The position numbers and the translations under genes are program-made. From Methanocella arvoryzae MRE50 (GTDB lineage Archaea; Halobacteriota; Methanocellia; Methanocellales; Methanocellaceae), in NCBI RefSeq assembly GCF_000063445.1, contig NC_009464.1, positions 310,001 to 374,000 on the forward strand: DNA of 64,000 bases, read 5' to 3'. The first letter of the stretch is position 1, and each line of letters starts with the position of its first letter. Of the stretch, positions 8,141 through 45,683 are shown one piece after another. Under the pieces are notes generated by a model. The model was not told where the DNA came from. It made no database searches and was given only the letters and a program-made list of their open reading frames with translations.

Positions 8141-8284
8141 CAGTCAGGTACCGTTTACACAAAGTACACAAGGTACACGAAGTACACGAAGTTTTACGAT
8201 AAGATCATATTACGGCATGCCGCTTTTACTATACTTAGTGTACCTTGTGTACTTCGTGTACTTCGTGTAAATGGTACGGGCACC
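8141..8284. repeat. TACACGAAG-type inverted-repeat element, copy R1 (intact)
   Basis: A roughly 140-bp element. The left arm (8147-8192) carries repeated TACACGAAG/TACACAAGG words and the right arm (8239-8277) carries their complement. The central loop includes GGCATGCC. The two ends differ outside a shared GTACC core: one reads CAGTCAGGTACCG, the other (opposite strand) GTGCCCGTACC. The same two ends occur in the 45.1-45.6 kb copy, which shows that this is a defined unit rather than random low complexity. No coding potential. Confidence 0.8.
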
Positions 8285-9271: not shown

Positions 9272-9719
9272 AAACGGTTTTAGTTATGCATCCTTTTACT
9301 ATATAGCTGCCGAGACGTGGGGAACAATATCTGAGTAGCCAGTATTTCCGGGCTCGTTGGTTTGAAGTTGCTATCTGCCCAGTGCTCTGCCGTTGCATGG
9401 ACTCTCGTGGGTAGCACAAAGACACAAAAATCATTTTTTAGATGGACACGAAATGCCCGAAAGCTCTAAGTTCACGGCTAAACCGCGAATTGCACTAAGA
9501 CACCGGTTAAAGCTCGAAGGCCACTAATACACGGCTTTAAAACACGAACAAGTTCCGCTAAAAGACGAAGACACCAAGTTAAAACAAACAACCATTTCGC
9601 CTTACCCCTGCCATGACGACTGCTACCTTACGGCTGTGCACCATAGTATTATAATAAAAAATAGGTTATATCTGCTATTGTTATAAGGCCGCCAGTCCCG
9701 CCAAGAGGCCAAGCAGTCT

Positions 9720-9978
9720 CATTATGAATAATGGGATATTCAGGTAAAGGCTATGAAAAATTGAAAGTTGGCCCTGTATAGGTCGAAAATACCGCCAAGA
9801 GCGCCAAGAAGCCAAGCTCGCCAAGAGCTATTTTTTCATGGAACGCCAAGGACTTTGTGATCAGTATCAGAAGATATCGCTAAAAATCTTGGCGTACTTG
9901 GCTCCTTGGCGTGCCTGGCGGTATTTTCGACTCACACAGGGCAAACATTAAATTTTTCATACTCTTACTTGAAAATAC
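9720..9978. repeat. CCGCCAAG-type hairpin element, copy a
   Basis: The left arm contains CTATGAAAAATT...GGCCCTGT...GTCGAAAATACCGCCAAG; the right arm contains CTTGGCGTGCCTGGCGGTAT followed by TTTCGACTCACACAGGGC and the complement of TATGAAAAATTT. The words GCCAAG and its complement recur about every 8-12 bases. A second copy, interrupted, is present at 44512-45118. The internal segment with ATCAGAAGATATCGC is shared by both copies. Confidence 0.8.
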
Positions 9979-9992
9979 CCTTTCATCCACGA

Positions 9993-10090
9993 GTCTTTCC
10001 TGAAACATTTTTGACAGTTCCTTTGCTATGATATTCGCCTGTTGAATACCTGCGAATGCAGGCATTCTCAAGGCGATTCTCGACAGCCGA
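9993..10090 (-). repeat. Fragment related to the TA-duplicating element
   Basis: GAGTCTTTCCTGAAAC at the left end resembles the terminal repeat of the element at 45249-45580, and the following ~95 bases match the right arm of that element in inverted orientation, including the CCTGCGAATGCAGGC palindrome (10049 region here, 45511 region there). Only this one arm is recognisable, so it is likely a decayed or solo copy. Confidence 0.6.
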
Positions 10091-10099
10091 TTTTCCCCC

Positions 10100-10205
10100 T
10101 CGTTCCTCTGGCCCCTCACCTTCCCCCTCTCAGACCTCCTGACCTCCCTGACCTCCCAGTTTGAAAAGTCTCCCTGATCTCCCGGCACTCCCCAATCTCC
10201 CATTT
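10100..10205 (-). repeat. GACCTCC-type element, single arm
   Basis: A pyrimidine-rich stretch repeating CTGACCTCC/CCTCCCTGA words, with the segment TGACCTCCCAGTTTGAAAA matching the TGACCTCCCAGCTTGAACG of the 44680-44970 element. Only one arm is present. Confidence 0.55.
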
Positions 10206-10662
10206 TCCATGGTACGGATACGCAAGCCGGATGACAACGACATAATCAGGATACCGTTAAACGATGGCAACTGCTTGTTCAACCGTGTTTTAGTTTGGTG
10301 TCTTCGAGCATTCGCGGAACTTGTTCGTATTTTAAGACCGTGCCCTTTGTGCATTATGTCGATTAATTGTGATTTCGTGCAGTTCGCGTTTTAGCCGTGT
10401 ACCTTAGAGCCTTAGAGTTTTAGTGTCCCTCTAAAAAAGTAGTTTAGTGTTTTCGTGCTACGCACGCAAGCCCAAACAACAGTGTAACACTGGACCACCC
10501 AATGCACTATAAGAAATGCGATATGGGCTGCATAGAACGACCTTAGATCTGGTAGAATAGTAAATCGGACGACACGGGCGGGTTGTCGCTCAACCCATTT
10601 TATGATTGGCGCTAAAAATTCGGCAATATAGCAATTTTTCAGAATTTTTATATGGCATTTGT

Positions 10663-23691: not shown

Positions 23692-23940
23692 TGCAAAATG
23701 TTCACCACAGAAGCTCACAGAGAACTGTTTTACCGCAGAGGCACAGAGACGCACAGAGATACACAGAGATACATAGAGATTTTTTGATATAATGATGGGC
23801 ATACAATAGATATTGAAGTAAGTCTCTGTGTACCTCTGTGCCTCTGTGGTGAACCGTTTCTCTGTGCGTCTCTGTGAGCCTCTGCGTCTCTGTGGTAAAT
23901 AGTAGCTCTGTGAGTCTCTGTGCACACTGTGGTGAGCCGT
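23692..23940. repeat. CACAGAGA-type inverted-repeat element
   Basis: The left arm (23692-23790) repeats ACACAGAGATAC/GGCACAGAGACGC words after TTCACCACAGAAGC; the right arm (23820-23940) carries the complement (CCTCTGTGCCTCTGTGGTGA and further CTCTGTG words). The short AT-rich loop contains TTTTTTGATATAATGATGGG. Frames through this region give only low-complexity peptides. A CCTGTGCCTCTGTGGTAAG fragment of the same type lies at 31388-31406. Confidence 0.75.
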
Positions 23941-44405: not shown

Positions 44406-44511
44406 GTTTTTTCAGCCCTCATCTACACATGTATCGCTACCGATATTTATTGGCGAATTCGTAGGTCACGATCGTTTCATTTGTTCCCGATCCGTGAACT
44501 ATAGTCTTATG

Positions 44512-45118
44512 AAAAATGAGATATTCAGGTAGAGGCTATGAAAAATTAATAGTTGGCCCTGTGTGAGTCGAAAATACCGCCAGGCCCGCCAAGGTGCCAA
44601 GCTCGCCAAGAGATATTTTTCATGGAACTCCAAGAGGCCAAGTACTCATCTCATGAAAACTGGTTTTTCTAGTTAAGCCGATGAAAAACTCCTGGAGGTC
44701 GGGAGTTCCCGGGAGGCGGGGGAGGATTTTCAAGCTGGGAGGTTCGAGAGGGTGGAGAGGTCGAAGAGGAGGTCCGGGAGTGTGGAAAGGTCAGAGAGGA
44801 TTTTTTAAGTTAAATCTCTCAGACCTCTGGGTACTCACATAACCTCCTCTCTGAACTCAATGACCTCCATGACCTCCCAGCTTGAACGTTTCCTCTCTAA
44901 ACTCCGTGAACCTCTCCGACCTCCCCCTCCCCCGACCTCTCAATACCTCCCTGACCCAGATTTTTCATGAAACGCCAAGGATTTGGTGATCAGGATCAGA
45001 AGATATCGCCAAAAATCTTGGCGTGCTTGGCTCCTTGGCGTGCCTGGCGGTATTTTCGACCCATATGGGGACAACTTTCAATTTTTCATACCCCTACTTG
45101 AAAATACCCTTTTCATCC
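44512..45118. repeat. CCGCCAAG-type hairpin element, copy b, interrupted
   Basis: Same ends and arms as the 9720-9978 element: left arm ATGAAAAATGAGATATTCAG...GTCGAAAATACCGCCAGGCC, right arm CTTGGCGTGCCTGGCGGTAT and complement of the left. The internal ATCAGAAGATATCGCC is also shared. The continuous left-to-right internal sequence of copy a is here broken near TTTTTCATGGAAC by a ~290-bp GACCTCC-type element (44680-44970) bounded by a second TTTTTCATGAAAC. Confidence 0.78.
44680..44970. repeat. GACCTCC-type inverted-repeat element, both arms
   Basis: The left arm is purine-rich (GGAGGTCGGGAGTTCCC..., repeated GAGAGGTC words), the right arm pyrimidine-rich (repeated GACCTCC/ACCTCCCTGAC words); they are complementary. 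Outer edges read ATGAAAAACTCCTGGAGG and the complement of ACCCAGATTTTTCAT. The element lies inside CCGCCAAG copy b. A half-copy of its left arm stands at 49066-49195 and a half-copy of its right arm at 10100-10205. Confidence 0.72.
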
Positions 45119-45248
45119 ATGAGTCCTTACTGAAACGTTTCGTACGAGTGCCCGTACCGTTTACACGAAGTACCCGAAGTACACGAAGTACTCAAAGTAC
45201 GGTAAAAATGGCATGCTGTAAGATGATCTTATCGTAAAACTTCGTGTA

Positions 45249-45580
45249 TAGTCATTTCTGAAACTTTTTGGACGTCTGTCCGATCAGATCGTGGGGCGTA
45301 TAGCCCTTGCTTATTCACGTGTGAACGATGACGAACGCTGCGCTGTGCTTGGACACAGATTGGACAGATGATACAGATTGGACAGATACGATAAGGAAAA
45401 ATTGGTTAGACGATATCCTATTTCAGGTAGTATCTGTATAATCTGTCAAATCTGTACAATCTGTGTCCCGGCACAGCGCAGCGATCGTTCACGCATCGCC
45501 TCGAGAACGCCTGCGAATGCAGGCGTTCAAAAGGCGAACATCCAGGCACAGGAATGTCCAAAAAGTTTCAAGAAAAACTA
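45249..45580. mobile_element. 332-bp non-autonomous (MITE-like) element with TA target duplication
   Basis: Terminal inverted repeats of about 25 bp: left TAGTCATTTCTGAAAC plus TTTTTGGAC, right complement TAGTTTTTCTTGAAAC plus TTTTTGGAC, 21 of 25 matching. It is flanked by TA on both sides (45247-45248, 45581-45582), while the uninterrupted homologue R1 has a single TA at that point. TA duplication is the hallmark of IS630/Tc1/mariner transposition. No transposase is encoded. A CACAGATT-type hairpin lies inside (about 45333-45490). A related arm lies at 9993-10090. Confidence 0.82.
45333..45490. repeat. CACAGATT-type hairpin with GAACGCTGCGCTGTGC ends
   Basis: Left end GACGAACGCTGCGCTGTGCT, then repeated ACAGATTGGACAGAT words; right arm repeats AATCTGT words and ends GGCACAGCGCAGCGATCG. 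The same ends bound the 19641-19941 element. It sits within the TA-duplicating element. Confidence 0.72.
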
Positions 45581-45683
45581 TACTTCGTGTACCTTGTGTA
45601 CTTCGAGTAAACGGTACCTGACTGTCATAAAAGATTTAAGAATAACTCTACTCAAACATGATAAAAAAGGATCAGACAGCAGT

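Follow-up and report, generated by a model that had tools for sequence, protein, structure and literature searches.

MITEs, short transposons that have terminal inverted repeats but lack a transposase, are little studied in archaea. The Correia elements of Neisseria target TA and have TATAGT-like ends, and they serve here as a lead only. ISY100 of Synechocystis, a member of the bacterial IS630 family, uses TA as its target in nearly all cases and duplicates this dinucleotide by cut-and-paste transposition (PMC2170065). In pneumococcus, the RUP, BOX and SPRITE repeats insert into one another, and RUP has IS630-like ends (PMC3049150). A 2024 review records MITEs in only a handful of archaea, and the passage that names them does not mention Methanocella (PMC10969869). 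Our literature search found no description in Methanocella of the repeats reported here.

The element examined in this work, a 332-bp insert designated E, resembles ISY100 in its duplicated TA target, which for ISY100 results from cut-and-paste transposition (PMC2170065). ISY100 is autonomous and has a transposase, whereas E is without one. By analogy, E and its relatives may also be likened to RUP of Streptococcus pneumoniae, whose ends are similar to those of IS630-Spn1: both are short, multicopy, bounded by terminal repeats and devoid of a transposase, and RUP is related to an IS630 of its own genome, as E and its relatives may be. Unlike RUP, the E population is archaeal, has a different end sequence and long word-array hairpins, and shows a strong bias to one host repeat.

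The window, which is the whole 64,000-nucleotide stretch analysed, corresponds to positions 310001-374000 of a 3,179,916-bp contig of Methanocella arvoryzae MRE50. Two inverted copies of one TACACGAAG repeat (R) are found in it, R1 at 8141-8284 (minus strand) and R2 at 45148-45625 (plus strand). The sequence-only reading had described them as an uninterrupted and an interrupted copy, and the two indeed align end to end with a single long difference, an insertion in R2. At the break point R1 has one TA, as do other intact R copies, whereas R2 has TA on either side (45247-45248 and 45581-45582) of element E (45249-45580, plus strand, TAGT...ACTA ends). In the R1-R2 alignment the net insertion is 334 bp, that is, E and one TA. 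The 5' sequence of E is TAGTCATTTCTGAAACTTTTTGGAC and its 3' end is the imperfect inverse; the left terminal inverted repeat (45249-45273, plus) matches the right one (45556-45580, minus) at 21/25 positions. The alignment bears out both the single versus double TA and the 21/25 match claimed earlier. As a host element, R2 extends over 45121-45648 and has outer GAGT-type ends, with end matrix matches at 45119 and 45650. R1, assigned by its alignment to R2 and to genome copies, has no recognisable outer ends, and many R copies elsewhere do carry them (e.g., TATAGTTATTCTTGAAACTTTTAGGAC and TATAGTCGTTACTGAAACGTTTTGTAC).

The interior of E contains two modules. A CACAGATT hairpin with GCGCTGTGC-type ends occupies 45331-45488 (inverted repeat I8), and the same module is present at more than 10 other loci. 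Its arms, 45331-45389 and 45430-45488, are 85% complementary, and the hairpin proposed in the sequence-only reading is real. A GC-rich palindrome lies at 45496-45537 (repeat D19) and has many copies in the genome. The fold of the whole element gave a z of -15.9 against shuffled sequences. No transposase ORF was detected in E by the ORF check, only a chance ORF running across it, and the element had no match to an Rfam family.

Genome-wide comparison yielded three full copies of E, in the window and at 607906 and 2174760, which are 99% identical with 2-4 differences in 332 positions. Each is flanked by TA and sits at a different TA in a different copy of R. When the flanks of E are joined they give R sequence, and this aligns to intact R copies with the junction ungapped. 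An equal filled/empty structure in R is seen for a fourth element (1019406-1019802), which has GACCTCC cargo and related ends. Four further related elements have at least one end inside R (2102029, 2608284, 1335044 and 1706500). The host repeat is not a chance effect of low-complexity words, the concern attached to the original R1/R2 comparison: ∼22 substantial copies of its 106-bp left part occur genome-wide, and the closest of the others is 95% identical (E-value 4.5e-43). At four sites the filled target can be compared with its reconstructed empty state; together with many empty R copies, these sites show that transposase-free elements, E among them, transposed into R and duplicated TA, as had been claimed for E.

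The ends of R and those of a further element, the CGCCAAGG repeat (G), are of the TAGT type, like those of E, and both the end profile and the end matrix find terminal repeats common to elements with different interiors. The end pattern had 27 matches in the genome vs. 0 for a reversed control, and 70 matches were obtained with a 27-nt end profile at an E-value of at most 10; the sequence-only reading had made its case depend on further copies with the same ends at TA sites, and these were found. One case of R within R was seen (2038807-2039004). G-type elements are known from searches and from selected stretches of the genome. In the window, one G with a TATAGTCTTATGAAAAATG end (44502-45112, plus strand, assigned from its sequence) is interrupted by a GAGGTC-word repeat and abuts R2, and its end matches other loci at 19/19 positions. 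The TATAGTCTTATGAAAAATG end directly follows R words in several cases, e.g., at 759343, 1335454 and 3064975. At many loci, among them 44502-45648 of the window and 759343 and 1335454 of the genome, G is joined to R or to other elements at a near-constant junction, CTTTTCATCCACGAGTC. From the recurrence of this junction it looks as if a composite G-R unit had spread. In a second island of the window (9642-10215), the same junction, CATCCACGAGTC, links a CGCCAAGG repeat to an element that carries GACCTCC cargo and has a CTTTCCTGAAACATTTTTGAC end.

The CACAGATT hairpin and GC palindrome of E also occur together in repeats that have other outer parts, such as TCTCTAATAAGGATAATTAG (L007, L014, L015 and L018; also L008, L010, L011, L013 and L026), and it looks as if interiors pass from one type of repeat to another. 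Palindromic mini-elements of 66-82 bp with TAGTC...TTGAAACAT ends were noted near 1865973-1866054 (L178) and near 2827576-2827641 (L195), and these are possibly minimal members of the E/R population. A CACAGAG-word palindrome at 23706-23922 of the window is a word-array hairpin of similar style. The genome carries a nested, transposase-free population of TATAGT-ended elements; their ends fall into two or more kinds, and their interiors are interchangeable.

Among the three other genomes of the order that were searched for homologues, two had no end-pattern or repeat match; a same-genus genome had one end-pattern match, and its only repeat match was a weak one to the GC palindrome. In a search of 295 genomes of the phylum, two marginal single end matches lay outside the source genome. 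Three scattered end-pattern matches were found in the genome_contigs set and nine in viral contigs, and there were none in plasmids or phages. The expansion is confined to the source genome among those searched. This confinement, the same-type ends of R and the genome-wide recurrence of nesting go beyond what had been read from the window. Another genome of the phylum (G236:C1:3163185-3163334) has a long ACAGATTCA tandem array with 53 pattern matches, which is unlike the hairpins of E.

The DDE_3 (IS630) transposase domain was detected at only one locus of the genome. This resident IS630 is single-copy, has TATAGT ends flanked by TA, and is split into two overlapping frames, orfA and orfB. The overlap (1430-1500 of L056) has an A-rich, slippery-looking stretch, which suggests programmed frameshifting. 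Of the 295 genomes searched in the phylum, 84 others contain IS630 relatives, and since most of these relatives have a similarly short open frame, the split may reflect normal frameshifting. An end matrix was built from these relatives, most of whose borders were set by comparing copy pairs in other genomes (TATAGTTATTAACTAAACATTT, TATAGTCAGTAACATAACTTTC, TATAGTATTAGACAAAACATTT and others). The MITE ends matched it at P ∼1e-5 per position, or 1e-4 to 3e-3 when the TATAGT hexamer was excluded. They conform to the consensus of archaeal IS630 ends, TATAGT with AAC at positions 16-18, and elements such as L225, L242, L253 and L257 have TATAGT...AAC in the same register. These archaeal IS630 elements are ∼1.1 kb long and have a transposase, and none in the source genome carries the exact MITE end. 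By these end comparisons, the IS630 type of the E ends is well supported, and the IS630/Tc1-mariner assignment, for which TA had been the sole basis, now also has the ends of archaeal IS630 elements in its favor.

The right end of the resident IS630 agrees with the left end of E at 18/24 positions (P 3e-4 after TATAGT) and with a G-type end at 19/24 (P 1e-4). The resident locus had no strong match to the full 27-nt end profile (best anywhere 4.4 bits), and a prefix-preserving shuffle test reached significance only when its right end was compared with certain element ends. With no strong profile match and a mixed shuffle test, we dropped the resident IS630 from exact partner to candidate. An autonomous element with exactly the ends of E was not found in the 295 genomes of the phylum. 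The IS630 transposase that the sequence-only reading had suggested looking for does exist in this genome, but its ends are not exactly the same as those of E. On its partial end similarity, the resident IS630 is an unproven candidate helper.

In the explanation that we consider highly probable, E is a MITE moved in trans by a putative IS630/Tc1-mariner-type transposase into R, an older MITE with ends of the same type. In the catalytic step, the transposase would cut at the TAGT...ACTA ends, and the cut element would go in at TA and duplicate it. The tandem TACACGAAG words of R offer many G-TA-C sites, the context most used by these elements, and for this reason R copies would serve as repeated landing sites where nests build up. 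It is very improbable that no transposition took place, with the R-E copies arising by recombination or copying of one composite, or R1 by precise excision: composites such as G-R are indeed found at several loci, joined at a constant point, but E lies at different TAs in differently flanked R copies, and many R copies are intact. We give hardly any credence to a REP/BIME-like system, in which a Y1 (RAYT-type) transposase would spread palindromes and would depend on hairpins, not on terminal repeats. The strong hairpins in E and the many copies of the GC palindrome would fit such a system; the precise TA duplication and the long terminal repeats common to elements with different interiors argue against it. 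Within the preferred explanation, the source of the transposase is evenly balanced. It may have been a related IS630 with TAGTC..CTGAAACTTTTTGGAC ends, since lost from the genome, rather than the resident copy, whose ends fail the profile and which has AAG at positions 16-18, where the MITE ends and the IS630 relatives have AAC. Against a lost helper, no such IS630 was found in relatives, and the resident one has its partial similarity to the elements.

The concentration of insertions in R may have more than one cause. A hand count from the scored list gave ∼17 non-R elements with strong ends (scores ∼28 or more) genome-wide, and 8 of the ∼17 are in R. As estimated from the window, R holds ∼0.2% of the TAs and 1.7% of the GTAC sites of the genome. 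The binomial P, computed for 8/16 and 8/20, was 2e-18 to 2e-17 with all TAs as targets and 7e-11 to 6e-10 with all GTAC sites as targets, coding DNA included in both. Targets inside and outside R mostly have G before TA and C after it, and the R arrays are rich in G-TA-C sites. Because targets outside R are also mostly G-TA-C, motif preference likely contributes to nesting in R, and tolerance may add to it. Survival alone is possible, though we doubt it: a TA-inserting MITE with no transposase preference for R would be harmless and kept in old intergenic repeats and lost elsewhere. Members of the population at the loci read are largely in intergenic repeat islands, and the same alternative has been given for the mutually inserted pneumococcal repeats (PMC3049150). 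However, 8 of ∼17 insertions in ∼0.2% of the TAs is above the expectation from non-coding tolerance alone, and G-TA-C is common to targets outside R as well. A tentative and rather unlikely proposal is that the TACACGAAG arrays are a dedicated landing pad, whose tandem 9-bp words with many G-TA-C targets would attract the whole TATAGT-ended population (several end and cargo types, R included). Newcomers would then gather in repeats, not in genes, and composites would spread further.

The E population is a new group of MITEs of the IS630/Tc1-mariner kind. Its mechanism is ordinary and its self-nesting unusually strong. Small repeats nested in one another were already known from pneumococcus (PMC3049150); the interest lies in the extent of self-nesting and in the possible landing-pad role of R. 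The common cargo hairpins point to interior exchange between such elements. The filled and empty sites document, cleanly and several times over, how elements without a transposase transposed specifically to TA in an archaeal genome, and with insertions recurring in one repeat, target choice can be tested directly against selection.
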